Source of the DNA: a virus | Virus record (IMG/VR): IMGVR_UViG_3300009320_000007 | Location: 25,167 to 89,166 of that record | Length of the DNA: 64,000 nt | Strand: one strand, 5' to 3' | Shown: positions 9,250 to 59,295 of the stretch, in pieces | Layout of the letters: every line of letters starts with the position of its first letter | How positions within the stretch are numbered: position 1 is the stretch's first letter | Made by a program: the position numbers and the translations under genes | Notes under the pieces: model-generated | What the model saw: the letters and a program-made list of their open reading frames with translations, nothing else | Database searches by the model: none | Told to the model about the DNA's origin: nothing

Positions 9250-9276
9250 GCACGCCCGAGAGCCGATCCCCCGGAG

Positions 9277-9465
9277 TCAGCACCCCTTAACTTTGCCAGA
9301 CTGTCCTCCCGGCATCAAGGATTGTTTCCGAGTTTTCTTTGTCCCATCCCTTTGGCGAGCGGCATCTTGGCCCAGTGAGGCCAACGGAAATGTCTCCACC
9401 CCCGGGAGGGTACCCCGGTCCCCGATGGCAGCGTCCCCTACGGGGGGTTTGGCCTTCTTACCCAT
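9277..9465 (-). CDS. small basic hypothetical protein
   Basis: 62 aa. The ATG overlaps the upstream stop (ATGGGTAA), and GGGGGAGG sits six bases ahead, a convincing start. The sequence is Lys/Gly/Gln-rich (MGKKAKPP, QRDGTKKTRKQS, GGQSGKVKGC) with little secondary structure, like small nucleic-acid-binding proteins. It lies between the XRE regulator and the methyltransferase genes. No homology is claimed. Confidence 0.6.
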   Translation of the reverse strand: MGKKAKPPVGDAAIGDRGTLPGVETFPLASLGQDAARQRDGTKKTRKQSLMPGGQSGKVKGC

Positions 9466-9841
9466 TGGCCTCCCCCATCGTCAGCAGTACCTGCAACATC
9501 TGGGGCTTGTTGAGTTCCTTCACCGACTCATAGGCCCTACGCCGCTTCTTAGGGGGCATTTGCTTGACGCCTTGCACGGCCAGGTCCCACACCGCCGCAG
9601 CACTCGTCAGCAAGTCAATCGCAGGGACATCCAGCGCTTCAGCGTGGCGAACCAAGGTGAGCAGTCGAATATCCTGATTGTCGTGCCGCTCCATCTTGGA
9701 CACTGCGACCGGGTGCACCCCCATCCGCTCCGCCACCTCCACCTGGGTCATCCCTTGCTGCTCCCGGAGCAGCCGCATGGTGTAGTACACAGCGGTGCAC
9801 AACGACAAGCCCAGTTTTTCTATTACCTCGTCAGCTTTCAT
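9458..9841 (-). CDS. XRE-family helix-turn-helix regulator
   Basis: 127 aa. Residues about 23-62 form an HTH_3-type domain (REQQGMTQVEVAERMGVH...VSKMERHDN), the Cro/CI/XRE fold that binds operator DNA. The N-terminal 20 residues and the C-terminal helix (AAAVWDLAVQGVKQMPPKKRRRA) may mediate dimerisation. The ATG is preceded by GGAGG at nine bases and lies inside the end of the upstream gene. It is a plausible transcription regulator of the phage or of the adjacent methyltransferase. No matching operator was identified. Confidence 0.9.
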   Translation of the reverse strand: MKADEVIEKLGLSLCTAVYYTMRLLREQQGMTQVEVAERMGVHPVAVSKMERHDNQDIRLLTLVRHAEALDVPAIDLLTSAAAVWDLAVQGVKQMPPKKRRRAYESVKELNKPQMLQVLLTMGEANG

Positions 9842-10010
9842 CAAGGAGGTCCTCCGTTATCGTCTCCGCCTCTACCTTGTCCCCCGGCCCCAACGTGATG
9901 CTGATCGTCACCTTCTTCTTAGGTACGGGGAAGACCCCGTCGAAGCCAGGAGCAACCCTGAAAGGGACGGTCCCTCCCAAATCCACGTGGTCGTCACTCC
10001 GGTAGCACAT
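9831..10010 (-). CDS. small beta-strand protein
   Basis: 59 aa starting MCYRSDD, with the ATG overlapping the upstream stop (TGATG) and an AAGGGG SD. Alternating residues (VPKKKVTISITLGPGDKVEAE) suggest a small beta sheet. The end is acidic (ETITEDLLDES). This resembles short phage proteins that end with a KVxxEAEG-like strand, but I cannot name the family. It overlaps the XRE gene by 11 bases. Confidence 0.7.
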   Translation of the reverse strand: MCYRSDDHVDLGGTVPFRVAPGFDGVFPVPKKKVTISITLGPGDKVEAETITEDLLDES

Positions 10011-11089
10011 CACGCCCCTTCGTTTTTTTGCCCCAACAGGGGGGCAACGACCCGCACAAGCATACCCTTGTCCACAACGAGCACGGGCACATCCTCCAAC
10101 TCCCCGTCTTCCCGAATGAGCGCTACTCCCCGCAGCAGCACGACGTCCTCCTCCTCTGCAACTTCCTCCACGGAGACGATGGTCTTTGCCAAAGGCGGGG
10201 GTTCCTCCCCCGACGGGGACGCCGTTTTGCAGCGCTCCCCCACGCCCTCTGTTGTGGAGGGTTCAGGCTCCATCCCCGGCAAATAGGGCTCTTCATCCTC
10301 TTCTCCCAACTCGGAGCGGGAGTGTTTCCCCGCTATATCCCTCAAAGTTTTGGACACGTCATCGTGAGTGCCCTTGCACCGCCACACCAACTCTCCTTCC
10401 AGGGTGAGGGAACCGATCATGTCGCCCGGGTCTGTGGACTCCGGGTCGGACATGATGACCGCAGTGTATATTCTCTCCCCCGTGCCTATATCCTCAGCCA
10501 ACTCCAGTCGTGTGACGGTGGTGGTGACCGGGGACACTTGCCCTGCCTCCCCCACTACGCCCACCTCCCCCTCGAATTCTTCGCAGTCCAACAAGCGATT
10601 GTACCTGTAGCCTACCTGGCGGATCAACGCCACCGTGATGTGCTCTAGCAATTCAAGGACAGGGAAGGCGTACACCACCTTCTTCAAGGAGGTTTCCTCA
10701 AACAACGGGTCCCGCTTGGGGGGGCGCTGCCCCACGGAGCGGCAGCGGTCGAGTGCATCAGTTACCACCTCCTCCAGGGCCTCCAACCCCCGCTCCTCGG
10801 CGCCCTCGGCGTCGGACTCGCTGCGAATAGCAGTGTTACGCGAAAAGCTCAGGATGGCTGCGCCTTGCAAAGCATCCACCACTCGGCAAAGGATGAGATC
10901 CTGCACTCGAGAAGCCTCCTCCTTCGTAAACGTCCTCCCCTTCACCTTCTCGGCGATGCCCGCCACCCCTTTCAGCTCGTCCGCTACCGCCAACAACAGG
11001 GGCGAAACTGCCCCCTGCCGACGAATAAGCTCATCCTCGAAGGCCACTTTTCCCGCCAACGCTGACAACAACTCAGCTTTCTTCTTCAT
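10010..11089 (-). CDS. acidic protein of unknown function
   Basis: 359 aa starting at MKKKAELL, chosen because GGAGG lies eight bases upstream; another ATG at 11104 has no SD. The N-terminal half is helical (VADELKGVAGIAEKVKG; ALEEVVTDALDRCRS). The middle carries a beta-rich segment (TTTVTRLELAEDIGTGERIYTAVIMSDP). After a Glu/Pro-rich linker, the C-terminus has another strand-rich domain (VVLLRGVALIREDGELEDVPVLVVD). No enzyme motif seen. Confidence 0.8.
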   Translation of the reverse strand: MKKKAELLSALAGKVAFEDELIRRQGAVSPLLLAVADELKGVAGIAEKVKGRTFTKEEASRVQDLILCRVVDALQGAAILSFSRNTAIRSESDAEGAEERGLEALEEVVTDALDRCRSVGQRPPKRDPLFEETSLKKVVYAFPVLELLEHITVALIRQVGYRYNRLLDCEEFEGEVGVVGEAGQVSPVTTTVTRLELAEDIGTGERIYTAVIMSDPESTDPGDMIGSLTLEGELVWRCKGTHDDVSKTLRDIAGKHSRSELGEEDEEPYLPGMEPEPSTTEGVGERCKTASPSGEEPPPLAKTIVSVEEVAEEEDVVLLRGVALIREDGELEDVPVLVVDKGMLVRVVAPLLGQKNEGA

Positions 11090-11107
11090 CACCTGTTCCT
11101 CCATTAG

Positions 11108-11602
11108 TTACTCAGTCCATGTCACCGGCCGGTACATTGGCGGCCCCTCACTCCAGGGGGTGAACAGCACCCCCGAGTTCGGGACCTGGGCCGTGTGCTT
11201 CGCTCCGTCAAACTTCACCCTTGGGTCGAGGGGGAACACCGTATCCGACATCGGTACCGCACAACGCCACCACTCCGTCTCGTGCCTGGAGTAGCATAGC
11301 ACGAACACGAGAGTGTTGGGCCACCGGCTCTCCTCGTACGCCCTTCGCACCCACAGCCCGTTCGTTCCCCGGCTGTAGGGGAAGTTGAGGAAGATACGAG
11401 TCCCCAGCTCGTGCCAGGGCAACGCCAACGCATCCTCTCCCAACGGGGACCCCGGCCCCAACCACCGCTCGCACTTGTGGTTCCCAGCATGGGCGGCGGC
11501 GTCCAGGTCGAACCTGAACACATGGTCGAAATAGTCGTACAGCTCCTGAGGAGTACCATAGTCCTCCTTGCCGCCGCCCGAAGGCTCTAAAGGGAAACCC
11601 AT
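11108..11602 (-). CDS. phage Dam-type N6-adenine DNA methyltransferase with altered catalytic motif
   Basis: 164 aa, typical length for the phage Dam family (PF05869-like). The hallmark segments are present: YGTPQELYDYFDHVFRFDLDAAA near 14-36, a following N-x-K-C element, and an IFLNFPYS motif at 71-77. Family members normally have NPPY or DPPY; here it reads NFPY (73-76), with the first proline replaced. The enzyme may be active, altered or dead. Such proteins usually modify phage DNA against restriction. A second, unrelated methyltransferase lies 2 kb away. Confidence 0.85.
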   Translation of the reverse strand: MGFPLEPSGGGKEDYGTPQELYDYFDHVFRFDLDAAAHAGNHKCERWLGPGSPLGEDALALPWHELGTRIFLNFPYSRGTNGLWVRRAYEESRWPNTLVFVLCYSRHETEWWRCAVPMSDTVFPLDPRVKFDGAKHTAQVPNSGVLFTPWSEGPPMYRPVTWTE

Positions 11603-11603
11603 A

Positions 11604-11762
11604 CTAGAACTCTTCGTTGTCGTTGAGGGTATCCAACATGACGTCGATGCGGCCGGCGATCTCCTCCAGTGAGTCCCGGGTTTGCCTTTGGCTCACCGAC
11701 GTGTCTCCGAACACCTCCTCAATGGCGGCTTTGGCCGCTTCCACTTTGTCTGCGTGTTCCAT
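11604..11762 (-). CDS. small acidic hypothetical protein
   Basis: 52 aa, ATG preceded by AGGAGGG at nine bases. It is almost entirely helical and Glu/Asp-rich (HADKVEAAKAAIEEVFGD, DSLEEIAGRIDVML). It ends two bases before the Dam-type methyltransferase start, so the two are probably co-translated. Function unknown. Confidence 0.7.
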   Translation of the reverse strand: MEHADKVEAAKAAIEEVFGDTSVSQRQTRDSLEEIAGRIDVMLDTLNDNEEF

Positions 11763-11810
11763 TGCCAAACTCCCTCCTAAGTAATAAGCACCCCCCGAAC
11801 TACTTCTCTG

Positions 11811-12548
11811 CTAAAGGGCATCTTCCGCCTCTCCTACTTCATCTTCGTCAAGGAAAAACCCCCTCCTGGTAGCTTCCTCCTCCTGCGCCTCGGAGATGTC
11901 GAACCCCTCCAACACTCCGTCGTTCACCCACGCCCATCCATTTGACTTGAGCTCCCAGGAGGAACTCTCGAGAACCCACATAGCGTATTGGTCCTTCTCA
12001 GTGCCCAGGCACCCCTGGAACTCCCCCTTTGGGTCCATCCACCCATGCTGGGAATCGGGGACCTTCAAGTGGTCCCAAGACAGGTCCGAGAAGAACTCCG
12101 CCTCCATGCGTTGCAAGACCACGTGGTCCGAGCACTTGGGCATGTACCCGCCGACATCGTTCACCCAGGCTTTCTCAGACTCTAGGAACCATGACGTGAT
12201 CGGAATCCCTCGAGCTGCTGCGTAGGTCACTAGGGCAAACACCTTCATGTTAACGTTCTTCTTCCCCCTTTTGATGCCTCGCATTACCCGATTCACTGTG
12301 GCAAGTCCATCCCCGCCGAGGGCTCTCTTCATACCCCGCAACAGCTCATCCAATTGCCGCACCAGGCCCTCCACCCCCAGGGGGTCCCTTTGGGACATCT
12401 TCGCCACTTCCTCAGCCAACTCAGCCAGCCGCCCCACCAAAGCGTCCCGCTCCTTGCGCCAATCCTTGGGGGGAATGCGCTGCTTCAACCCCTTCACAAC
12501 GATGCGCAGCTTCCGGTTCTCCCGGCGCAGGTCTTCAAGCTCTCCCAT
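11811..12548 (-). CDS. coiled-coil hypothetical protein
   Basis: 245 aa. AGGAG lies nine bases before the ATG. Residues 1-60 form a coiled coil (GELEDLRRENRKLRIVVKGL, then LAELAEEVAKM). A basic segment (RVMRGIKRGKKNVNMK) and a Trp-rich globular part follow (WVNDVGGYMPKCSDHVVLQ; LKSNGWAWVNDGVLEG). The C-terminus is acidic. No family recognised. The coiled coil plus basic patch could allow oligomeric DNA binding, which is speculative. Confidence 0.8.
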   Translation of the reverse strand: MGELEDLRRENRKLRIVVKGLKQRIPPKDWRKERDALVGRLAELAEEVAKMSQRDPLGVEGLVRQLDELLRGMKRALGGDGLATVNRVMRGIKRGKKNVNMKVFALVTYAAARGIPITSWFLESEKAWVNDVGGYMPKCSDHVVLQRMEAEFFSDLSWDHLKVPDSQHGWMDPKGEFQGCLGTEKDQYAMWVLESSSWELKSNGWAWVNDGVLEGFDISEAQEEEATRRGFFLDEDEVGEAEDAL

Positions 12549-12713
12549 CTACTCAAACTCCTGGTCGTAGTGCTCATCGGCGGCCTGAATGACCGCCTCG
12601 GCCGCAGTGCTCCCCTTGCTGATCACGCCGCCAGTGACGTGGCAGTACACCTCTCCAACGTTCTGCATCACTCCAGCCCCAGGACAGCCCAGAATCTTCT
12701 GCTCACTCCCCAT
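12549..12713 (-). CDS. small hypothetical protein
   Basis: 54 aa with GGGGAG five bases before the ATG. It overlaps the end of the upstream gene by 11 bases and abuts the next ATG. Two cysteines (GCPGAG, VYCHVTGG) and a short Ala/Glu helix are the only features. Function unknown. Confidence 0.65.
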   Translation of the reverse strand: MGSEQKILGCPGAGVMQNVGEVYCHVTGGVISKGSTAAEAVIQAADEHYDQEFE

Positions 12714-13110
12714 CGTTCTCCCCGCTCAGCACCGAGCACTCGTGGAAGTTCATTTCGTCGATGACCGTGACGTCCCCCTCCTGGTGGGACTTCTTTATGG
12801 CGCCCCCGAGCCCCATAGGTAGTGTGCCCATCGGCAGCACTCTCGAGTGGTCGGGGGACTCACGCATCTTGCGGAATTCCTCCCGCATCACCCCCAGTTG
12901 GTCCTTGGTGTACGCCCGCCCATCATGGGTGAATATCCTGTTCCCGCCGAAAGAATGCACCCGCACCTTCAGGGGGTCCAAGAGGCGGTACATGGTCCCC
13001 TCCGGCGTCTCCACCTCCAAGGAGAGGGCGTTCCCGTAGAACAGCAACTCCAGCTCCATGAGGGCGTCGAGCTCTACCTTGGTGTGGAGCTTCGTGTACT
13101 TGTCAGCCAT
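12703..13110 (-). CDS. hypothetical protein
   Basis: 135 aa, ATG overlapping the upstream stop (TGATG). The first half looks alpha/beta (LHTKVELDALMELELLFYG, LSLEVETPEGTMYRLLDPLK). Then comes RVHSFGGNRIFTHDGRAYTK and a Gly/Met-rich segment (LPMGTLPMGLGGAIKKSHQ). No recognised family or catalytic motif. Confidence 0.8.
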   Translation of the reverse strand: MADKYTKLHTKVELDALMELELLFYGNALSLEVETPEGTMYRLLDPLKVRVHSFGGNRIFTHDGRAYTKDQLGVMREEFRKMRESPDHSRVLPMGTLPMGLGGAIKKSHQEGDVTVIDEMNFHECSVLSGENDGE

Positions 13111-13631
13111 CAGTTGTCCAGCTTTTCCGGCTTGGCCTGCTTGGCCTGCTCCAAGACGGCCATGAGGAAAGTACGTATCCCGTGCCCCACATGGCTAGGT
13201 GGAAGCAGGGAGCACACCTTCGTGATGAAGGAAGTCTGCTTGCTCAACCGGGGGAGCGCTACCTTGAGCTCCAGTGTTACCTGACGAGAATCGCTCACCG
13301 CCTCTTTCCGGGCCGTCTCCGCCGCTGCCAACTCGTTGATGAGGGCCTCCATCCCCTCCGGGACATCCTGCACCGCCAAGTCGACGTACTTGTAGAGGCA
13401 AACGGCCATCGCCATCCCCTGATAGAACCCGATGGCCCGCTCACTGGCGCCCCGCGCCCCACCCCCAACAAGAGCCTCTCCCAGGTAGTCCTTGATTTTC
13501 CCTACCACCCCCGGGGGTATCCGGTAGTCCTTGACGAACTGCCAGTTCAACGTGCGCAGCTTGTCAATACCACTCTCCTCGTCGACGATGGCCAGTACCC
13601 GCTCTACGAACTCCATCAGCTCAAATGACAT
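13110..13631 (-). CDS. helical hypothetical protein
   Basis: 173 aa. AAGGGGGA lies upstream and the ATG overlaps the previous stop (TAATG). Predominantly helical, with an Ala/Glu-rich middle (EALINELAAAETARKEAVSD) and a Gly/Ala loop (LVGGGARGASERA). The C-terminal helix ends QAKQAKPEKLDN. No family recognised. Confidence 0.8.
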   Translation of the reverse strand: MSFELMEFVERVLAIVDEESGIDKLRTLNWQFVKDYRIPPGVVGKIKDYLGEALVGGGARGASERAIGFYQGMAMAVCLYKYVDLAVQDVPEGMEALINELAAAETARKEAVSDSRQVTLELKVALPRLSKQTSFITKVCSLLPPSHVGHGIRTFLMAVLEQAKQAKPEKLDN

Positions 13632-13987
13632 TACGATTCCCCCTTAGGGCAATTGCCCTCCGGTAGCAGATCCGCACAGAGTCGGGCTAGTCGGACACCC
13701 TCTTCTGTCGGTTCGAATCTGGCCAGCACTGGATGCCCACCCCCTAAGAAGTGGGGGTCCAACTTTCCATTGTCCTTGTAGACGCCTCGGGTGAGGAGGA
13801 GCTTTCGGCCATCGAAGGTGGTACATCCTTCGTAGTCCACCACCAGAATCGAATGGCCGTTCCGGTCCTCTTGGGCTACTATCGTGTACTTGAAAGGATT
13901 GGGGTTCGGCGGCTCGGGGGGAGGGCAACTGCACTGGGTTTGGCAGGTACAGCTACTCCCTCCGCTGAATAACGTTATCGCTCCCAT
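13631..13987 (-). CDS. Cys/Pro-rich N-terminus hypothetical protein
   Basis: 118 aa from MGAITLF, with GGGAGGG ahead of that ATG. Residues 12-18 hold a tight Cys cluster (CTCQTQC) followed by a proline linker (PPPEPPNPNP). The rest is a small alpha/beta domain containing HSILVVDYEGCTTFDGRKLL. The cluster could bind metal or anchor the protein. Function unknown. Gene order is coupled on both sides. Confidence 0.75.
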   Translation of the reverse strand: MGAITLFSGGSSCTCQTQCSCPPPEPPNPNPFKYTIVAQEDRNGHSILVVDYEGCTTFDGRKLLLTRGVYKDNGKLDPHFLGGGHPVLARFEPTEEGVRLARLCADLLPEGNCPKGES

Positions 13988-14069
13988 CAGGACCCTCCCA
14001 TTTGTTGGTGAGCTAATGATACCCACCCGATAAGGTCTGATCCCGGGAACTCCACGTAGAATTCGTTCG

Positions 14070-48829: not shown

Positions 48830-49804
48830 TTACACCTGCACTTTGAAATTCAGCACACCAGGGAAGGTCAACAAACAGGAGGGGTTGATCGTCCCGGCCG
48901 GGGTGACCAGAAAGTCGGTTGTCAACCACTGCATGAACTTGACCCCGTCAATGACGAACCCGTCCTCCTCAGTCAGTATCAGCCGCTGCGTATCGAAACG
49001 AATTTCAGGCGCCTCAAAGGTCACCGAGAGCTTGGCGTACCAGTACACGGTCTTCAAGGTGTTAATATCTACCGCCTCAGTCTCCAGCGTCATGGAGTCC
49101 TTAAAGGTGCCGAAAGTGTGTCCTTCTACATCGGTGTAGCTGTCCCCCTTGACCGAAACCCCCCGCGTCTGGGCCTCCTCCGAGTAACTGCCGTCAGCCG
49201 CAATTTCGGCGTGGAAAGCCCCGCACACGACGCTCGAGTACACGGCTCCCCCCTCCCCTGCCCAGTCCTTGACTCCGAAGTCCTTGCCGGTGCTCCCAAA
49301 CCGCATGTGGAGGGTAGACTCACCTAAGTCGTGACCAACCACGAAGTCCAACACCGCATCCTTCCAGGACATCTTCCCCTGCGGCGTAACCAGCTCGTAA
49401 TTGCTGGTGAGGATCTGCACTAAGTCCTGACTGGGCACTAAGTAAATGGACGCGGTGGCTTTGCTATACAACTCGATACGCCCGTTCTTGCGGAGCACTA
49501 TGCGACTGCCCAGGGGGAGCACCCACCCATGGTCGCCGGGATCAAGGTCAGTGTTCATCGTGCCTTCATGGTCCCGCGGCTGCAGCAGGAACCATTGCTC
49601 AGCTGACTCGGAAGTCCTCAACGCCAACCAAGGCTCGCCCTCTTCCGGCATGGCTCCGGAGGCCTTCCCCCCCTTGAACGCATTGAGGCGCACATCCGGG
49701 ATGATAACCGGGTCCTTGGCCGTGCCGTAGTCCAAACGGACAGTGGCCAGCTTATTCTCCGGGTCCACCGAAACAATAGTGACTTCTCTTATTTCTGCAG
49801 CCAT
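48830..49804 (-). CDS. baseplate spike-like protein with N-terminal OB fold
   Basis: 324 aa. The N-terminus (VTIVSVDPENKLATVRLDYG ... GEPWLALR...) follows the OB-fold layout of gpV/gp5-type tail spike or puncturing-device proteins. The rest is repetitive short strands (FGTFKDSMTLETEAVDINT; KMSWKDAVLDFVVG) compatible with a beta-helical spike body. No lysozyme domain visible. It sits directly downstream of the RNA polymerase gene. Confidence 0.65.
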   Translation of the reverse strand: MAAEIREVTIVSVDPENKLATVRLDYGTAKDPVIIPDVRLNAFKGGKASGAMPEEGEPWLALRTSESAEQWFLLQPRDHEGTMNTDLDPGDHGWVLPLGSRIVLRKNGRIELYSKATASIYLVPSQDLVQILTSNYELVTPQGKMSWKDAVLDFVVGHDLGESTLHMRFGSTGKDFGVKDWAGEGGAVYSSVVCGAFHAEIAADGSYSEEAQTRGVSVKGDSYTDVEGHTFGTFKDSMTLETEAVDINTLKTVYWYAKLSVTFEAPEIRFDTQRLILTEEDGFVIDGVKFMQWLTTDFLVTPAGTINPSCLLTFPGVLNFKVQV

Positions 49805-49812
49805 TGGAAACC

Positions 49813-52800
49813 TCAGTACCCGGGCCTACCTTCTCGCTTGGGCTTGCCGAACTCCGCCCCGCTCAACCAGGCAGGGACAGGGTGCAGCCCATGAACTTCA
49901 GCCCTCTCCCCGGTCGCCCCGGCCCTGATGAGGGTCTGTTTGACGCCCCGATAACCGAGGGACTCCAACCAGGTATCTCGATGCTGCGGCAACGCCGTCA
50001 CCCCCTTCAACACAGGAGTTACCCTCAACGAGTTGTCGTGGGAGCGATTCCAAGCCCGGGCTTGGTAGTAGGGGATATACTCCCCCTTGATCTTATTGGA
50101 AGAGCCGGGGTCGTCCACCACCGCTAAGTTGGTAACGGCCCTGACCAACACTTCCACGTTCCGGGGGTCGATGCCATACTTGCCGTAGACAGCCATCAAG
50201 CTGTCCGCCATCGACCGCTGAGCGGCTGGTAAGCTCTTGGTCACGGCAAGCACCTCCCTCGGGTCCACCAAACCGGTAGTGAGGGCCTCCCCCAACTTCA
50301 CGGACTGACCCCGTTTGACCACAACCGCGCGGCCCACCGGAGCGAAGTACTTCCCCTTCCCTTTACTCCCCGTTACATGCACGTATGTGCCGTCGGGGAC
50401 CTTCTCAACCGAGGCCACCTTCCCCGCCAAATGGGAAAGAGTGGCCTTACCAGGCAAGTTCTGGGGCAAACGGAGAAGGTTGGTAACCTGGTCCAGGGGG
50501 GGGAGCTCCCCGAAGCCGCCGAGGTGAAAGCTGCGAAGCGTCAATTGGGTTCCCCGCTCCCCCAGGGCCTGGGCGGCCTTGATACCGACGTTGTCCCCCA
50601 ACTGGGCCGGCCCATGCTCAGTCTGCCCGAAACACCTGGCGCAGATCCCTTCCCCGTTGCGGCAGCTCAGGGGGGAACGTACCCTTACCTGCTTTACTCC
50701 CTTGCGCCGGAAAATATCTACCTCGGCTGGAGTGATGATAGTGCCTGCTCTGACCCCCGCGGTGCTTTCCCCCAGCACTCTGTCCACGGCATCGGACACC
50801 GGGCGTACGCTGCCGGTGCTCCCACAATCACGGGTGGCGATGACCGAGCTCATGGTGGCGGCCAACATCTGCTTGGTGATGTCTCCAGGGATGCGTACGG
50901 ACCGCACGGACTGCACCACTGCTTTGCGGGCCGTCGGCGCCGTGGACCAGTAGTCCATACTGTTCATTCCCTCGGCGTACCCCCTCCTCACCGGCACGAG
51001 GTTGCCCTCCCCCCAGTCTCCAAACAGGGGAGAAAGCAGCATTTGCTGCAAATTTGCCTTGGCCGGTTTCAACCCCGCCCGATTCATCCGGGTAAACGTG
51101 CTCCCGGGGGGGTATTGCTGTCTCTCCAGGGCTCTTCCCACGTCCCGCACAGCTTTTTCCTTGTTTTTCGCCCCCTCCAACTGCCTCAAGTACCTCCGGC
51201 GCTCAGCCCTCAATGGCGTCAAATCCCCCAAGGACACCGACAGGCCTGAACGGTAGGAGTATTCGAAGCCCAAATTCTTCAAGCCGTCCATGACCGCCCC
51301 GTAACGGGCGGGCGAGACCACCCCCAAGGTCTCTGCGAGGGCTTGGAGGCGCTTTTTGTCCAACTGGGGAGCGCCAACAGCCAAAAAACTCGCCATTTCG
51401 GGAGGTAAGAGGCCTTGAATCATGCTCCGGCCGAGGGTGGTCTCCTTCCCTGCCACCCGAATGCGGTCCGTGACCCCGATCTCCCCTCTTTTTTGGGCAG
51501 CAATGGCCTTTTTGAGGTCCCCGAAGCCCTTTTTTGCCTTTTTTCCCCTCACCGCAGTCATGTCGAAAAGCCCCATCAGCGCTTCATGGGTCGGAGTGTA
51601 CAGGTAATCGCCGCTGGAGGGACTCCTGAGCAGCCTCGAGGGCATGCTGCGCTTGGCTTCGATGACCGCTTCGTCGGAAACGGGGACGAAGAGAGAGCAG
51701 GTGTCCCCGTCGAAGTCCGCGTTGTACACGCTGGTCACCAGGGGGTGTAATTCAATGACGTTTTCGTTGGTCGGGCGGGGAAAGAAGGCCATAACGCCGA
51801 ACTTGTGAAGCACCGGGTCCCGCTTCAGCCACACCGGGCGGTCAGCAATAGCCCGTTTCAGGGCGGCTTCAACCAGGGGGTCCTCAGGACGGTCCTCGGT
51901 GAGCTTCTTAGCTACCAAAGGGGTTAATCCCAAAGTAGCAAGCTCTCGGACAATGAAGGGCTGGTACATCTCCCGCAGCATCTCCCGCGGAACTCCTACC
52001 TCATCCAGGTGCAAACCGGGCCCGGGGACAATCACGGCTCTCCCGGACAAGTCCTGCCGACGCCGCATGATGTTGCGGTGGACCATGCCCAACTTCACCG
52101 AGCCGGTCCCGTGCAGCTGCTGAAAGATGCCCTTGGCTTCCCTGTAGTGTTCCGTCTTGCCTAAACCGAACAGGGCGGCTACGTCGGCGTAAAGCTTACC
52201 CCGGGCGTTTCTCCCCTCCTCGAAAGCCATGAGCTCAGGGGTTTCCTTTTTCAACCCCTTAAGTGAGTTGCCAGTGGCAATAAGGTCGCCGTACAGGAGG
52301 TTCAGGTCCGAAATAATCAGCCGCCCCTTCATAGAGGTAACCGGCCGAAAGACCGGGGGTATCACAGGGACGTTGCGGAGCATGTATACGTCCGCTCCCT
52401 CGCCCAGCTCATCCAGAGCCCGGAGGAACCTCTGACGTAGGGGGTCGCCTCCCTTGCTCAGCTCCTTTCGGACGTCCAATTCCCTAAGGGCCTTACCTAA
52501 CGTGGTGTTGCCCGGCCCATCTACCGCCGTGTACTTCCCGTCCTCGTACTGAAGGCCCTTTTGCCCGCTGCCCACAGCGATAACGTGCGCACGGGTCAAG
52601 CCCAAGATCTTGGAGATGGGGGAAATGAACACTGGGTTGGGGACTTCGTAAGGGAGACGAATATGGCCCCAGCCCGAGCCGTCCAAACCACCCGTAATCT
52701 TCGAGTCGAAGAGCTCCCCCGCCTTTGCCTTGCCGGTCTTGCCGGAGAACATGGTGGGCTTGGTCAATTCACCGTTGGAACGAGCCAGGATCTCCTTATT

Positions 52801-55800
52801 GGTCATGGGTAAGAGCCACATCTCGTCCCCTTCCCTCTCCAGCTTCAACCCGGCCGCATTCAGGTAGGCTTCGAACTTGTGGTACACCTTGGGGACCCGA
52901 GGAGGGGGTAGGGTTTGCCCCAGTTGAATGGCGGTCCACACTGCATCGTTGTCCTTGTCACCACGATAGCTGAGCACCTCACGCATGTTCTCGCCAGCAC
53001 CGTGTGCAAGTAGGGCCATGGCCATCCCCCGGTCGGCAGACTGGGCTTTCCCTACTTCGCCTTCTCCGGCCTCCCCACCTTTTACCGGGGTACCTTCAGC
53101 GGAGTACGCGTAGGGGTAGCCGGCACCTCGAGCATTCATCTTGTGCTCGGCCTGGTGGATGAGCTTCAGCAAGTACTGGTACCCCACCAGGACGTCCCCC
53201 ACCTTCTTGCCGTCAACGAAGACCTCCTCTGTGTCGGACATCCCGTTCTTCTTCAGGAGCTCCGCCACTTCCTCAACGAAGTCCCGCTCGTAGCTGTAAG
53301 CTTCGATGTGCTTCTTGATCGGCCTGCGCTCCTCCCCCCTCCCAACCCAGTAGGTGCGCTCATGCGCCGGGACATCAACAATACGGACACCTCCGGAGAA
53401 GCTGCTGACCGCAATGGGGTGCCCTTTCTTCTTGGCAACTTTGCCTACCAGAGTCTCGTACATCTGGGAGGGATTTGTACGCCCCCCGATTCCGACAGGA
53501 TTAAGCAAGACATCAAGCGGTCTCCCGTCCCTGGTGGTGGGCATCTCCGAATCCGGTTTGATCTTTCCGCATACGCCCTTGTTGCCATGCCGGCCACTGA
53601 GCTTGTCGCCCAGCTTGGCCACCTCTTCCACCGCCACAGCGATGTAGTACCCATCCGGCGTCTTCTCCACCTCTTGCACGATTCCGGGGGTCTGCCGATC
53701 CCACACCACCGAGGCGTCTCTGAGCGTCTCCATCCCCAACTTCTTGCCCAGTAGGCGCTCCTCTTTGGACATGGCCTGCTTCTTCACCCCGGCCACCAGG
53801 ATTTGCCCCTCTCGGACCAAAGTACCTGGCTTTACCACCCCATCCTCCAACGTCGCCCGCTCCTCCACCGACAGCGGCCGTACAGTGCGGGAGAACAACG
53901 CGGCGTCCACCTCAGCGTCTTCGCTATAGTGCTTCTGCACAATAGCTGTAGAAGTGAGCTTGGCGGCAAAGGACTCGCTGATGGTGATGGCGTCCTCGAA
54001 GTTGAACCCGTCGGCCATGTAGCCTACCCGGGCGTTCACCCCCATGGCGATGAGCCCGTCCCGAGTAGTGTTGGCCTCTGTGAGGCGGTCGCCCTTCTTG
54101 ACCTTGTCCCCCTTCTTCACTACGGGCTCGTGGTGCTCCACCGATCGGCCGTCGTTCAAGGGGAACATATGGGGGATGAAGACCTTGTGCTTCCGCCCGT
54201 CCTCCCCGTTCACCAGAATGCGGTCTTTGTTCACGGAAACCACGGTTCCGTTCACGGGAGAGCGCATCACCACCATGTCTCCAATTACTCGCTCCACTAT
54301 TCGACCGTTGTCCGTGGCCGTCAGTACTAGCGGAACCTCCCGGTCCCGCAAGGCAATAGCGGAAGTCAAATGACGGTACACCATCTCCAAGCGGTTGGGG
54401 GAGGTGGCAGTGGCAAACGGGGTGGACAGGGTCACCTCTGAGAAAGTAGTAGCCGGGTCGATAACGTACTTCACGCTCCCGGCCGGCACTTCGACTACCT
54501 TGCCGCCCTTGATGGCCCGTACGTTCCGCCCAGCCTTCTTTGCCTGAGCATACTCATCAGTGAGCGCGTACGGGGTATTGAGCAGCTCCCGCACCGTGAA
54601 CGTGTGGGGCTGGCCCGTCTTCACTTCGCGTACCCTGAGAGCAGGCTCCCGGTTCTTCACCGTACCACCGATAGAAAGGGGGTACACCGCCCCCGCTTTC
54701 TCACTCTCCGGCGTCACCACCGGGTCGATGACGCCCACAAACGTGGGGTAGACGGAGCGGGCCGCCTCAGTGATGGCGTCGGGGTTGGAGATGCCCCCCT
54801 CCCCCATGATGCTGACCCGGCCCACTGCGCCCAATTCCGCATAGGGGTTGGTCTGCGGCGCCCGGTCGGCCAGGCCGGCGGAGGTGAAAATGCTCCACAC
54901 CGACTTGTCGTACGGGGAGGACCCACCCATGATAGCCGTCACATCGTCACTTTTGGCCATTCGGTACTTGAGCTTCCCGGTCACTCCCGCTCGGCTGATC
55001 CGCTCATGCACGAACGCAGGCATGTTCATGAACCAACGGTACTCCAACGAGTCTCTCCGGTCCGGTGTGTCCTTCCCCCGCACCACGTTCAGCAACTTCC
55101 GAGAAGAGAGGAGCATCACCTGGGAGGAGACCTTGGTAGTCTTCAACCCAATAGTCTTCTCCGGCACTTCAGGAGTGCTCATCTCCATGGCGGAGAACAT
55201 CTCCCGGACCAACAGGGGGGCCCCGCTCTCGTTGGAGTCCACCCCCGCCGCTGCCAGCAACCGGACCAACTTGGGCTTAGTCGCTGCATTCTTTTGGAGC
55301 ACTTCTGCACCCCAGGCGGACCGCATGTCACCGTCATCCACCCCCAAGGCCTTCATGACATGGTAAAGAGGGACATTGGTGTCCCCGTACTTCAAGGTGT
55401 AGAGCTGCCGCTCCGGGCTGTACAGGACCTCAAAGTTCCTCCCCCGGGAGAGGTTGAAAGAGGCAACGGTATCCCCTGTCTGCTTGCGGTGAATAAACAC
55501 CCCCGGCTTCAGCCGGTTCTGAGTAATGGGGTAGTACTCACTGTTATTGACGATGTAGCTCCACCTGGAAGTAGGCACGGGCACATTCACCAAGCGCAGC
55601 CGTTGCTTGTCTACAAGCCTCCCCTCTTCATACAGCGCCACGGTCCCCCGAATACCTACGCCCCACTTCTTCCCCTGCACCCGAGCAGCTTTCTGGGCGC
55701 TGACATCAGTGGGGTCCTTGGGGGTTTCCACCTCTACTTCGGACAGCCGCAACTCCCTCTTCCCGTACTTGACCGGGAACTGCCCCTCAAGGGCGCGCAT

Positions 55801-55851
55801 GGCAGCGTTCAAGTTCTCCGAGTAGTCCCGGGGGAGCGTCCTGTCCGGCAT
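49813..55851 (-). CDS. single-chain beta-beta' RNA polymerase
   Basis: 2012 aa with GTGGAGGG before the ATG. The first half (to about 1015) is beta-like: GRHGNKG at 753-759 with LNPVGIGGRTNPSQ after it, and the ADRG..AL.AHGA element near the end. The second half (from about 1016) is beta'-like: GELFDSKITG, the catalytic NADFDGD at 1377-1383, a zinc site (C1676 with C.....CxxC near 1735-1750), and the trigger-loop element GTQLTLRSFHLGG (His1776). The usual N-terminal beta' zinc domain is absent. Alpha, omega and sigma were not found here. Location among virion-type genes suggests a packaged polymerase, unproven. Confidence 0.96.
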   Translation of the reverse strand: MPDRTLPRDYSENLNAAMRALEGQFPVKYGKRELRLSEVEVETPKDPTDVSAQKAARVQGKKWGVGIRGTVALYEEGRLVDKQRLRLVNVPVPTSRWSYIVNNSEYYPITQNRLKPGVFIHRKQTGDTVASFNLSRGRNFEVLYSPERQLYTLKYGDTNVPLYHVMKALGVDDGDMRSAWGAEVLQKNAATKPKLVRLLAAAGVDSNESGAPLLVREMFSAMEMSTPEVPEKTIGLKTTKVSSQVMLLSSRKLLNVVRGKDTPDRRDSLEYRWFMNMPAFVHERISRAGVTGKLKYRMAKSDDVTAIMGGSSPYDKSVWSIFTSAGLADRAPQTNPYAELGAVGRVSIMGEGGISNPDAITEAARSVYPTFVGVIDPVVTPESEKAGAVYPLSIGGTVKNREPALRVREVKTGQPHTFTVRELLNTPYALTDEYAQAKKAGRNVRAIKGGKVVEVPAGSVKYVIDPATTFSEVTLSTPFATATSPNRLEMVYRHLTSAIALRDREVPLVLTATDNGRIVERVIGDMVVMRSPVNGTVVSVNKDRILVNGEDGRKHKVFIPHMFPLNDGRSVEHHEPVVKKGDKVKKGDRLTEANTTRDGLIAMGVNARVGYMADGFNFEDAITISESFAAKLTSTAIVQKHYSEDAEVDAALFSRTVRPLSVEERATLEDGVVKPGTLVREGQILVAGVKKQAMSKEERLLGKKLGMETLRDASVVWDRQTPGIVQEVEKTPDGYYIAVAVEEVAKLGDKLSGRHGNKGVCGKIKPDSEMPTTRDGRPLDVLLNPVGIGGRTNPSQMYETLVGKVAKKKGHPIAVSSFSGGVRIVDVPAHERTYWVGRGEERRPIKKHIEAYSYERDFVEEVAELLKKNGMSDTEEVFVDGKKVGDVLVGYQYLLKLIHQAEHKMNARGAGYPYAYSAEGTPVKGGEAGEGEVGKAQSADRGMAMALLAHGAGENMREVLSYRGDKDNDAVWTAIQLGQTLPPPRVPKVYHKFEAYLNAAGLKLEREGDEMWLLPMTNKEILARSNGELTKPTMFSGKTGKAKAGELFDSKITGGLDGSGWGHIRLPYEVPNPVFISPISKILGLTRAHVIAVGSGQKGLQYEDGKYTAVDGPGNTTLGKALRELDVRKELSKGGDPLRQRFLRALDELGEGADVYMLRNVPVIPPVFRPVTSMKGRLIISDLNLLYGDLIATGNSLKGLKKETPELMAFEEGRNARGKLYADVAALFGLGKTEHYREAKGIFQQLHGTGSVKLGMVHRNIMRRRQDLSGRAVIVPGPGLHLDEVGVPREMLREMYQPFIVRELATLGLTPLVAKKLTEDRPEDPLVEAALKRAIADRPVWLKRDPVLHKFGVMAFFPRPTNENVIELHPLVTSVYNADFDGDTCSLFVPVSDEAVIEAKRSMPSRLLRSPSSGDYLYTPTHEALMGLFDMTAVRGKKAKKGFGDLKKAIAAQKRGEIGVTDRIRVAGKETTLGRSMIQGLLPPEMASFLAVGAPQLDKKRLQALAETLGVVSPARYGAVMDGLKNLGFEYSYRSGLSVSLGDLTPLRAERRRYLRQLEGAKNKEKAVRDVGRALERQQYPPGSTFTRMNRAGLKPAKANLQQMLLSPLFGDWGEGNLVPVRRGYAEGMNSMDYWSTAPTARKAVVQSVRSVRIPGDITKQMLAATMSSVIATRDCGSTGSVRPVSDAVDRVLGESTAGVRAGTIITPAEVDIFRRKGVKQVRVRSPLSCRNGEGICARCFGQTEHGPAQLGDNVGIKAAQALGERGTQLTLRSFHLGGFGELPPLDQVTNLLRLPQNLPGKATLSHLAGKVASVEKVPDGTYVHVTGSKGKGKYFAPVGRAVVVKRGQSVKLGEALTTGLVDPREVLAVTKSLPAAQRSMADSLMAVYGKYGIDPRNVEVLVRAVTNLAVVDDPGSSNKIKGEYIPYYQARAWNRSHDNSLRVTPVLKGVTALPQHRDTWLESLGYRGVKQTLIRAGATGERAEVHGLHPVPAWLSGAEFGKPKREGRPGY

Positions 55852-55931
55852 CGGTTCCCTCCACTAGTCCGTAGTCTAACCTACCCGGCGCTAAAAAGAA
55901 AGAAGCGTAGCAAAGGGCAGCCAAATCCCGC

Positions 55932-55976
55932 TATAAGAACAATGTACAGTGCCGAGAAAAACACCAGGCACTGTGG
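55932..55976 (+). promoter_or_regulatory. TATAAG element with downstream hairpin
   Basis: TATAAG at 55932-55937, then CAGTGCC (about 55947) and GGCACTG forming a 7-bp hairpin in the leader. Upstream of the rightward gene at 56016, between two leftward genes. Confidence 0.5.
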
Positions 55977-56015: not shown

Positions 56016-57116
56016 GTGGCACTAGACATCACAAGTGTGACTCGCCAGGTAGCACATCGGCTTGACGAGACACAACTCGACGGGAGGGTGATCGGAGGAA
56101 GGGGCGGATTCTCCCGATTCTTCCGAGACCACCTGCCAGAGGGGATGGTCCTCATCTCCAACGCCCAATCCATAAAGCTCTTTGAAGCCCACTACGGAAA
56201 GGCCCCCTGGGAAGCCTATGGCTGGGGGAAGGAAGAAGTGGGGCGGAGCGAAGCCGGGCGGGCAGTACTGAAAGAAGTTGAGGACACCGGAGTCATCCCC
56301 TACATGTTGGCCTGGGAGTACATCGTACCCCCGGATTGCGAAGTCACCCTGGTCAACGCCGAAACCGTAAGTAACTCATTCTTCGGTGCAAGTTTCAAAT
56401 CGGCCATCCACCTCGTTGGGGACCCGTTCCGATCCCCAAGGCCGGGGGCGATGTCGAATCTGCTCATGAACGCCGCAGAGAACGAGGTCTCTCTGCCTTT
56501 CACGATCGTGCGGAATCTACGAGAGCTGGGGTTCCACCCGGACCAGTGGCTGCCGATAGATGAGGATATCATCCAAGTGGTGGACGCCATCGAGGAGGAT
56601 GCCCGAATGATTACGGTCGTCGTGCCAACTTGGGCAGATATGGAGTTGATTGATTGGGCAACGCCCAATCGCTTCCCCAAAGATGACTTTGGGGTGTTTG
56701 CCACTACCGTGGCGGACATAGCACGGCATGGCCCCAACCGAGCTTACGGGCTCATCCTGGAAGCCTGCCAAACGAAGTTCACTCGGGAACGGTATCTCCG
56801 GAGAGGCACGCCGGAAAAGACCGCTGAGGAACTCGCCAAGTGTGACTACGTGTCGGACTTTGCCAAGGACACGGTACCCATGGATGTGCTGGAAAAGGAC
56901 CTCAATGCCGTATGGTCCCCCACCGGCCTGAATTACCCCCGTGGGAGCGACCGCCGCATCATGACGGTCTACACACTGAACGACACCGACTGGGTTGTGC
57001 TGCTCCCGCCCCCAGCCTGGTGGAAAGATCACGAGAGGGCATGGTACCTGTACCGTGCCGCCACGTCCGCAAGGGAGGGCATACTTGTCGTGGACGAGGA
57101 GGAGGAAGGGTTCTGA
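56016..57116 (+). CDS. hypothetical protein in a rightward insert
   Basis: 366 aa from a GTG with CAGGAGG ahead (an ATG two bases earlier hits a stop). Mixed alpha/beta (GMVLISNAQSIKLFEAHYG; MITVVVPTWADMELIDW) with an acidic end (VVDEEEEGF). No family recognised. It has its own TATAAG element and terminator, so it is an independent unit inside the leftward virion block. Confidence 0.85.
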   Translation: MALDITSVTRQVAHRLDETQLDGRVIGGRGGFSRFFRDHLPEGMVLISNAQSIKLFEAHYGKAPWEAYGWGKEEVGRSEAGRAVLKEVEDTGVIPYMLAWEYIVPPDCEVTLVNAETVSNSFFGASFKSAIHLVGDPFRSPRPGAMSNLLMNAAENEVSLPFTIVRNLRELGFHPDQWLPIDEDIIQVVDAIEEDARMITVVVPTWADMELIDWATPNRFPKDDFGVFATTVADIARHGPNRAYGLILEACQTKFTRERYLRRGTPEKTAEELAKCDYVSDFAKDTVPMDVLEKDLNAVWSPTGLNYPRGSDRRIMTVYTLNDTDWVVLLPPPAWWKDHERAWYLYRAATSAREGILVVDEEEEGF

Positions 57117-57318: not shown

Positions 57319-57360
57319 GGGGGACGGTTCTGGGGACCGTCCCCCTTTCCCCCTTTTTTA
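57319..57360 (+). terminator. rho-independent terminator
   Basis: GGGGGACGGT (57319-57328) pairs with ACCGTCCCCC (57336-57345), followed by TTTCCCCCTTTTTT. It ends the rightward insert and lies beside the portal stop codon. Confidence 0.75.
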
Positions 57361-59295
57361 GCTGTACCCCGCTCTGCGTGGCGGGAGCTGCTCAGGGAGG
57401 GGCCTTTCAATGACCGGCTGCATGGGGTTGAATTGCTCCATCAGCGCCCGGTGCATATCAATGTTCTTGTTGGCGATGTCCTGCAACACCATAGCCCGCT
57501 GCAAGGGGGACTGATGCTTCAGCGCCATGCTGATCTTGTGTACTGCCCCCGGGTCCACACCTTCGGGAGGCACCATAGCGAGTATCTCCGGCGTTCCCAT
57601 CACCCCGTGCGTTCCCGACAACTGGTCGGGGGGAGGCGCTAAGGGGGATTCCCCCGGTTGAGCCTCCTGGCCGGGTTGAGGCTGTCCCTCTCCAGGGGCT
57701 CCTCCCGGCGGTGCTTCCTGGCCAGGTTGAGGCTGCCCAGGTTGAGGCTGCCCCGGTGGAGGGCCGAGCCCCAATTCCTCCTGCAACCGCTGAATCGCCG
57801 CCTGGTTGCGCACTCGCATCTTCTGCTCCTCGAGTTGTGCTTCCCAAACGGCCTCACTGTCAAGGCCCATTCGCTCGTGCACCACCCGGTACGCCAGGCC
57901 GCCCTGGGCCGCCATGCCGCTCAGGATGGAGAGCTTCTGGACCTCGTCCCCGGACATGATGGGTTGGAGGAAGACCTCGTTGGGCAGCCCCCAGCCCAGA
58001 ATGGAGGCGCACTTCTTCATCACGAACCGAATGAACCGCTTGTGCAAGTGCATCAACGCTATGAACTCGGTGTCCAATGCCCGCAGAGAATGGGAAGCGC
58101 CCGACCACGACTTGCCGCCCCACACGAACTCGACCGGTGTGCGCGCTCCAATGAGGATACGCTCCATCAGCAACCTGACCTGCTGGTCAGGCATGAGCAG
58201 GCGATTGGGGTCCCCGAACTGGAGCAGCTGCGACGGGATGGGGGAAATGGCCACCGAGGCCGGGTCCTGCTCCCAAGTCTCCAGCTGGCTGCGCATCTTG
58301 TCCATCCACATCTTTGCGGCGCCGGACAGGTTCACACTGTGCCCAGCATCTCCGGAAGCGGCCGGGGTGATCATCCGGAAAGGGATGAGCTGAGTCATCA
58401 CCAGCGCCTCCTCCGCTTTCAAAACAATCTTCATATGGAAGCAGTCAGGCAACGTCCCGGCCAACGTCGGCCAGGGCCACCCTTCCCTGGTCTGCACGGA
58501 CTTCTTGTAGGTGGAAGGAGTCAGCGCTGTTTCCTCAAAGATGAACACCTGGTCATTGAACAGGTTCATCTTCTTATTACGGAGGATGGCCTCAACAAAC
58601 TCCTGCGGGGTGTCGGCAATGGCCTCCCGCTTCCCTAACTTGACCTGGTTCCGAAACTCTTTGGAGAAATCCACCTGGTACTTAGGCTGCAACGAGAAGC
58701 CGACGCGCCTCACCGACAGCTCAAAGGGGTCCCACCGCCGTAGGGTGATGCGATTCCCCGCCTTGATGTAGAAATCCCTGACCACTGCTCGTTGGTAGCT
58801 CTTGCAGACCACACAACGCACCCGGAAGGACTTGTCCCACGGGTCCACCTTGAACTTGGCGATCTTGGCTAAGTGAGGCTTCCCGCACTTCTTGCAGAGG
58901 AAGTACTTGTTGAACGGGGCGATCACCGACACTGCAGCGTGCCCGTACACATAGAGGTCAAGGTTGATCTGCACCCGCAACGCCTGAATATCCAAAAACT
59001 CCGTCAGGAGCTCCACCCAGTCGTCTATTTCAGACTCCCGAAGCCCGCCCCGCAAAGTGAGATCGGTAACCGGGTACAATGCTTTGCGGACAATGGCAGC
59101 ATTGAGTAGGGGGTTGAAGATGGCGAAGTAGGCGCACCACCGCCATACCTCATGGAGGGTGTCGGGGAGTACTGTACTGGCGTAATCCAAAAAAGGCGAC
59201 GGGGGCTTGCTCAACGTCAGCCGGGACCGATCGTAAGCGGCCAGTTTGGAAGGCGGCCGCCTCTGCGGCAACGATTTGACTCTGCCTTCACCCAC
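57358..59295 (-). CDS. phage portal protein with zinc ribbon
   Basis: 645 aa from a GTG that overlaps the upstream stop, GGAGG ahead. The middle and C-terminal parts show the portal pattern: FDP-like starts, GARTPVEFVWGGKSWSGASHS near residue 380, and helical segments with basic/acidic residues. C134, C137, C161 and C164 (CKKC, CVVC) form a zinc ribbon inserted in the N-terminal part. The C-terminus has a Gln/Pro/Gly-rich repeat (GQPQPGQ units, about 515-570). The portal forms the DNA-entry dodecamer at the capsid vertex. Confidence 0.85.
   Translation of the reverse strand: MGEGRVKSLPQRRPPSKLAAYDRSRLTLSKPPSPFLDYASTVLPDTLHEVWRWCAYFAIFNPLLNAAIVRKALYPVTDLTLRGGLRESEIDDWVELLTEFLDIQALRVQINLDLYVYGHAAVSVIAPFNKYFLCKKCGKPHLAKIAKFKVDPWDKSFRVRCVVCKSYQRAVVRDFYIKAGNRITLRRWDPFELSVRRVGFSLQPKYQVDFSKEFRNQVKLGKREAIADTPQEFVEAILRNKKMNLFNDQVFIFEETALTPSTYKKSVQTREGWPWPTLAGTLPDCFHMKIVLKAEEALVMTQLIPFRMITPAASGDAGHSVNLSGAAKMWMDKMRSQLETWEQDPASVAISPIPSQLLQFGDPNRLLMPDQQVRLLMERILIGARTPVEFVWGGKSWSGASHSLRALDTEFIALMHLHKRFIRFVMKKCASILGWGLPNEVFLQPIMSGDEVQKLSILSGMAAQGGLAYRVVHERMGLDSEAVWEAQLEEQKMRVRNQAAIQRLQEELGLGPPPGQPQPGQPQPGQEAPPGGAPGEGQPQPGQEAQPGESPLAPPPDQLSGTHGVMGTPEILAMVPPEGVDPGAVHKISMALKHQSPLQRAMVLQDIANKNIDMHRALMEQFNPMQPVIERPLPEQLPPRRAGYS

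Follow-up and report, generated by a model that had tools for sequence, protein, structure and literature searches.

A gene of an uncultured virus whose reading frame seems to hold both large subunits of a bacterial RNA polymerase (RNAP) raises the question of whether beta and beta' are truly joined in one chain or only appear so in one assembly and, if they are joined, what kind of enzyme such a chain would form and when the phage would use it. The gene lies in the window, by which is meant the whole 64,000-nucleotide stretch analysed here (IMG/VR record IMGVR_UViG_3300009320_000007, positions 25,167 to 89,166). As far as sequences can tell, the answer consists of one chain with its catalytic residues and domain set, a common junction, recurrent split positions, a portal neighbourhood and a sigma-like gene, with no alpha or omega found; the best reading is an alpha-less, sigma-dependent and probably virion-packaged RNAP, whose catalysis, packaging and promoter use are inferred.

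One frame for two subunits

The gene and its parts are as follows.

49813-55851 (circle 120176-126214), minus strand: RNAP gene, beta-beta', 2012 aa; from open reading frame, Pfam and Foldseek
55857-55862, minus strand: Shine-Dalgarno-like GGAGGG of the RNAP gene, 5 bases upstream of the start
52828-55851, minus strand: beta-homologous part, residues 1-1008; Pfam PF04565 and PF00562, AlphaFold
49816-52827, minus strand: beta'-homologous part, residues 1009-2012; Pfam PF00623 and PF04998, AlphaFold

The frame opens with ATG and runs through 2012 codons, first beta and then beta', without an internal stop. The Pfam domains follow in the same order, namely PF04565 (2.1e-7), PF00562 (1.2e-48), PF00623 (4.5e-25) and PF04998 (3.9e-12), those of beta spanning residues 331-911 and those of beta' residues 1157-1782. 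With the 2012-aa protein as query, phmmer matched bacterial beta' chains (best 4e-91), and the identity of the chain to RpoB and RpoC is 22-24%. A preliminary description of this DNA had placed beta and beta' motifs in one stop-free 2012-aa frame and had read the product as a single-chain beta-beta' enzyme; both claims are borne out, the motifs lying where it had put them and the single chain being supported by the Pfam order, the lack of a stop and Foldseek matches to RpoB and RpoC. The strand, which it had left out, is minus for the RNAP gene as well as for the neighbouring portal and downstream genes.

The IMG/VR record from which the window is taken has 89,166 bp. It shares with a twin contig, IMGVR_UViG_3300013120_000767 (134,075 bp), identical stretches of 22,049 bp at one end and 17,419 bp at the other, so that record and twin close into a circle of 183,773 bp (Arash, 180,819 bp; Vibrio phage D69, 186,708 bp). 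Given the 100% overlap at both ends, the listed 89-kb record represents about half of the genome, and the closed circle makes most of that genome searchable, with own and crude gene calls. The twin contig was the only match of a single-sequence IMG/VR scan, its RNAP gene being 100% identical; relatives needed alignment-based scans, and in those at 32-38% identity the gene is unbroken. A frame error at the junction, which according to the preliminary description would have refuted the fusion, is excluded by the identical twin copy and by the unbroken gene in these relatives and in dozens more contigs. Likewise, an assembly artefact can be rejected because about 70 further contigs bear the same one-chain gene. 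The fusion of full beta and beta' in one frame is therefore real.

Catalytic core, fold and zinc sites

The sites on which function would depend are the following.

53575-53610, minus strand: beta active-site motif GDKLSGRHGNKG, with K750 and K758
51703-51723, minus strand: beta' catalytic motif NADFDGD, with D1379, D1381 and D1383
50524-50553, minus strand: trigger-loop GTQLTLRSFH, with R1773 and H1776
50632-50826, minus strand: C-terminal zinc site, C1676, C1730, C1737 and C1740

Lack of the functional core, the other finding that would have told against the preliminary description, was not met with: all core catalytic residues are there. In a residue alignment of 33 one-chain, 19 two- or three-chain and 11 bacterial sequences, D1379, D1381, D1383, K750, K758, R1344 and H1776 are invariant throughout. 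The trigger-loop position of R1773 varies: the window has R, K or R predominates among one-chain members, and S or G among split ones. Structure prediction, proposed as a check at the outset, gave two overlapping AlphaFold models, of residues 1-1190 (mean pLDDT 82) and 820-2012 (82.1), which match bacterial subunits nearly over their full length: the N-terminal half resembles Thermus RpoB (Foldseek E 7.6e-66, TM 0.65-0.69) and the C-terminal half an RpoC model (E 1.7e-60, TM 0.75). By the assignment made here on the models, the 36-residue helix 1631-1666 fits the bridge helix, helices 1755-1776 and 1786-1794 the trigger helices, and the pair 1182-1203/1211-1228 the clamp helices, the docking place of sigma. 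The core features of a bacterial RNAP are met (two double-psi barrels, the Asp triad, two lysines, bridge helix and trigger loop); its layout of separate beta and beta' chains with an alpha dimer and omega is not.

The two zinc sites, of which the N-terminal one of beta' had been described as missing and the C-terminal cysteines as kept, were both judged correctly. Alignment to Salmonella and Staphylococcus beta' finds no N-terminal zinc domain: where bacterial beta' has a Cys-rich insertion between FCARIFGP and RRERMGHIEL, the window has instead the short turn GGLDGSGWGHIRL, and the domain is missing clade-wide, in all aligned one-, two- and three-chain members. The C-terminal site, with its four cysteines in place, is retained in the window and in most aligned members.

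Gene neighbourhood, sigma-like gene and packaging

The RNAP gene is flanked by two genes of the same strand.

57358-59295, minus strand: portal gene of 645 aa on the upstream side of RNAP; similar to gp204, the portal of Arash
48830-49804, minus strand: downstream gene of 324 aa; weak similarity to the structural gp238 of Arash

The portal matches Arash gp204 with E 1.7e-32, Vibrio phage D69 being matched as well, and in about 120 loci the RNAP gene is preceded by a portal homologue. The downstream gene is weakly similar (E 4e-4) to gp238, which precedes the PAAR spike of Arash; apart from the twin contig, 7 related loci have matches to it. No Pfam or PHROGs family was found for the portal of the window and its neighbours. 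The proposed location between spike-like and portal genes, within a virion gene block, is borne out by the portal on one side and the gp238-like gene on the other, and by the adjoining portal homologue in those other loci. A 366-aa gene on the opposite strand (56016-57116, plus) lies between portal and RNAP; it occurs only in a 68%-identical relative (L019) and in the twin contig, and has no Pfam or PHROGs family match.

The search for small subunits in the rest of the genome, which had also been suggested, turned up a sigma-like gene of 317 aa outside the window, on the twin contig (circle 53565-54518), in the tail/baseplate block. Its product matches Pfam Sigma70_r3 (6.6e-9, above the Pfam cut-off) and a PHROG sigma family (7.7e-12), has a C-terminal helix-turn-helix and is homologous to the virion sigma gp10 of Arash (E 3e-10), the match to region 2 being weak only. 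Sigma was matched in 20 of 25 records and not found in five, among which is the partial record to which the window belongs; alpha was found in none of 25 records and omega in none of 21. The beta' catalytic domain occurs at one place per record (21 of 21), without a second RNAP. The controls came out as expected, with the caveat that a divergent small subunit could escape Pfam.

As to packaging, virion proteomics of Arash, comprising 116 proteins, recorded 3516 spectra for Gp206 (beta-beta'N), the most of all proteins, 1210 for Gp216 (beta'C) and 467 for the sigma Gp10 at 100% coverage, which its authors relate either to early transcription or to carry-over of abundant infection proteins (PMC10585845); these counts are without length normalisation. 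In the phage of the window, packaging of the RNAP in the virion is probable, an inference by homology to Arash and from gene position only.

A lead on promoters comes from GCTATAAG, of which the circle has 7 copies. None is on the strand of the structural genes, and 6 are intergenic; CTCA(A/T) stands some 17 bases ahead of several, and one (window 55930-55937, plus) precedes the divergent gene at 56016-57116. Located before presumed early or non-structural genes, it is a candidate promoter and resembles a sigma70-type extended -10, the polymerase that reads it being unidentified. Upstream of structural-strand genes, no motif rose above shuffles. The single-chain enzyme could be genuine and yet unpackaged, made during infection for middle or late genes while the host enzyme serves the early ones; that host RNAP could read this motif and that the searched records have no second RNAP have been counted for such a division of labour, and carry-over was named as an alternative by the Arash authors themselves (PMC10585845). 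The motif is, however, equally readable by the phage enzyme, the RNAP gene lies inside the portal/spike block in about 120 loci, and in Arash particles the RNAP chain has the top spectral count and the sigma is fully covered; an unpackaged polymerase remains possible, but unlikely.

Relatives and the history of the chain

Two IMG/VR scans gave some 150 loci, most of those in the second scan being one chain. The one-chain gene of the roughly 70 further contigs is usually 2,010-2,180 aa long, reaching about 2,660 aa with inserts or inteins, and contigs of the clade measure up to about 150-208 kb. Among cultured phages, the nearest relatives found were Salmonella phage Arash (OQ632216) and the Vibrio phages D69, D148 and D181, all with the enzyme in two chains. 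Two-chain loci, including Arash and D69, encode beta-beta'N (about 1525 aa) and a separate beta'C (about 606 aa), with a break at about residue 1468, across which the gene of the window is unbroken. In many uncultured relatives a three-chain form has an extra break at about 1110, some 100 residues inside beta', so that the N-end of beta' is still attached to beta; in one locus (L050) a break falls inside beta, at about 482.

Two one-chain relatives, L030 (RNAP frame 7902-14024) and L143 (7929-14000), are readable only with TGA as sense; they have 4 and 11 in-frame TGA codons respectively, several at conserved tryptophans, for which reason TGA probably codes for Trp in both phages. Insertions that look like inteins interrupt conserved RNAP motifs in L019 (7926-11432), L021 (8894-15049) and L149 (7845-15626), at GDKL|C, LNP|C, TPE|C and inside beta'; they contain LAGLIDADG, and L149 has in addition an intein-splicing match below cut-off. 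The host of the phage was not found; a scan of genome contigs gave seemingly cellular RNAP genes, which served as outgroups; the rpoB and rpoC of OR844998 (L004), filed as a Staphylococcus phage, also look cellular and are probably host DNA.

The junction itself is compact.

52807-52848, minus strand: junction hairpin, residues 1002-1015, LKLEREGDEMWLLP; from models and bacterial alignment

Its strands, 1002-1007 and 1010-1015, are present in both overlapping models, and alignment to the bacterial beta C-end and beta' N-end places the subunit border at the hairpin. From residue 985 to 1070, each of the 52 members compared, whether of one, two or three chains, has 86-92 residues, as opposed to 134-177 in most bacteria, gene border included. 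As the junction is common to the 52 members and the splits lie elsewhere, the fusion is ancestral and the split forms are re-fissions; the three-chain form, broken inside beta' with the junction intact, descends from a fused one.

The trees agree. In a mixture-model tree (31 rows, 1751 columns), built along the line of phylogeny that the preliminary description had recommended, the phage clade is supported by 100/100; the split clade (100/99) is nested among one-chain members, with L132 at 96/95, and the three-chain forms (100/99) sit inside it. A larger quick tree likewise nests three-chain in two-chain forms, L050 excepted, and has the two-gene phages as the next group (SH-aLRT 93, long branches). 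The exact place of the window is uncertain because of its long branch (1.58 in the mixture-model tree). On this sequence evidence the gene is no isolated oddity but a member of a large phage clade with a common fused junction.

An ancestor with two or three chains, which were joined into one only later and perhaps repeatedly, could be accommodated insofar as deep branches are short and L145, L150 and L132 shift between the two trees. It is nonetheless most improbable: three-chain members retain the fused junction and split about 100 residues inside beta', which presupposes that their ancestor was fused, both trees show the split forms as nested, and beta' is unsplit in bacteria and in the two-gene phages. 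Scarcely tenable is processing of the chain, by proteolysis or by an internal start at codon 1011, into the beta and beta' of an ordinary two-subunit RNAP, since that codon, although an ATG preceded by the purine-rich, Shine-Dalgarno-like GGGAAGGGGACGAG, is not conserved as Met1011 in the one-chain relatives L018, L020 and L073, while the junction keeps its length in 52 of 52 members and is modelled as a compact hairpin rather than a flexible, cleavable linker. A conserved internal start at the junction was accordingly rejected.

A proposed course of events

The reading preferred here, a single ancestral fusion followed by re-fission, suggests the following course. Beta and beta' would have been joined once, in the ancestor of a tailed-phage lineage, with a tight hairpin in place of the beta C-end and the beta' N-end and with loss of the N-terminal zinc domain of beta'; with one chain, the alpha/omega assembly platform may have become unnecessary. 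The phage sigma-like factor of 317 aa would most likely dock on the retained clamp helices and flap and confer promoter specificity. The RNAP would be made late, with the head and tail genes, packaged together with sigma and delivered into the host, there to transcribe early phage genes, and some relatives would later have cut the chain at about 1468 and then at about 1110.

It is quite likely that the gene encodes a complete and active single-chain RNAP core, the product of one ancestral fusion, that depends on sigma and is packaged and delivered for early genes, although catalysis, sigma partnership, packaging, delivery, early role and promoter use are inferred. The balance tilts only slightly in favour of a broader picture, in which an ancient and widespread lineage of phages of about 180 kb would possess a virion-delivered two-protein machine, a single-chain RNAP plus a phage sigma without alpha or omega, fused once and then cut anew, away from the old border between the subunits, into one-, two- and three-chain versions.

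The lineage offers a natural one-, two- and three-chain series of a nearly full bacterial-type RNAP core, on which it can be tested whether one polypeptide is able to stand in for the alpha/omega assembly platform, which role the N-terminal zinc domain of beta' plays and for what reason the polymerases of phages come apart so easily behind the catalytic barrel. If soluble, a sigma-dependent RNAP made of one chain would also be an uncomplicated enzyme tool. In addition, an orphan group (Arash) is linked to about 150 uncultured contigs, with the RNAP as a marker gene beside the portal.

Comparison with known systems

Natural rpoB-rpoC fusions, with beta and beta' in one chain, are found in Helicobacter and Wolbachia; unlike the enzyme of the window phage, these are cellular and contain alpha and omega.

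The mReC group (Weinheimer and Aylward 2020) likewise consists of tailed phages with a deep-branching bacterial-type RNAP, and was described as encoding beta and beta' subunits and having capsids of PF07068 (PMC7481178). The window clade encodes beta and beta' in one protein, and PMC7481178 is silent on counting such proteins for mReC. Among the records searched, 4 of 5 from two-gene phages contained PF07068, against 0 of 17 from the window clade, so that the clade is without that mReC feature. A viral RNAP gene "encoding beta and beta prime" has been placed at the base of the mReC clade (PMC10159854) and may be a fused relative reported without comment, and cellular-clade derivatives with fused barrels are mentioned, unnamed, in the available part of PMC10770324. 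Literature coverage being partial, no paper was found that describes the clade as fused, fused members among the 97 mReC contigs of PMC7481178 not being excluded.

The RNAPs of phiKZ/AR9-type jumbo phages are also phage-encoded, lack alpha and omega and exist in a virion form, but have beta and beta' each split, come as two paralogous enzymes and use no sigma (PMC7598289, PMC7824862), whereas the phage of the window has a single enzyme per genome, made as one chain, and a sigma-like gene. In the relatives, the split at about 1468 comes behind the catalytic barrel, in line with descriptions of beta' in jumbo phages. A phiKZ-type jumbo phage was rejected on the grounds of one chain, one RNAP, a sigma-like gene, a genome of about 184 kb and Arash and D69 as closest kin.

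A two-barrel RNAP in one polypeptide is shared with crAss-like gp66, the P23-45 RNAPs and YonO, which are highly divergent from cellular RNAP, gp66 and P23-45 gp96 being virion enzymes (PMC10770324, PMC7481178); gp66 has no recognisable similarity to cellular beta/beta' models (PMC7481178). In contrast, nearly all domains of bacterial beta and beta' are retained in the window enzyme, at 22-24% identity, and a crAss-like or QDE-1 single-chain two-barrel RNAP was rejected on the Pfam matches of 1.2e-48 and 4.5e-25.

The nearest likeness is to Arash and to D69, D148 and D181, which share the RNAP lineage, the junction and the position of the RNAP gene after the portal; Arash has, in addition, homologues of terminase, capsid, portal and virion sigma. 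Arash and the Vibrio phages are also alike in size (about 180-187 kb) and in the absence of the N-terminal zinc domain of beta'. Arash and D69 differ from the window in AADYDGD instead of NADFDGD, in S or G at the position of R1773 and in beta'C as a separate gene, where the window has one chain.
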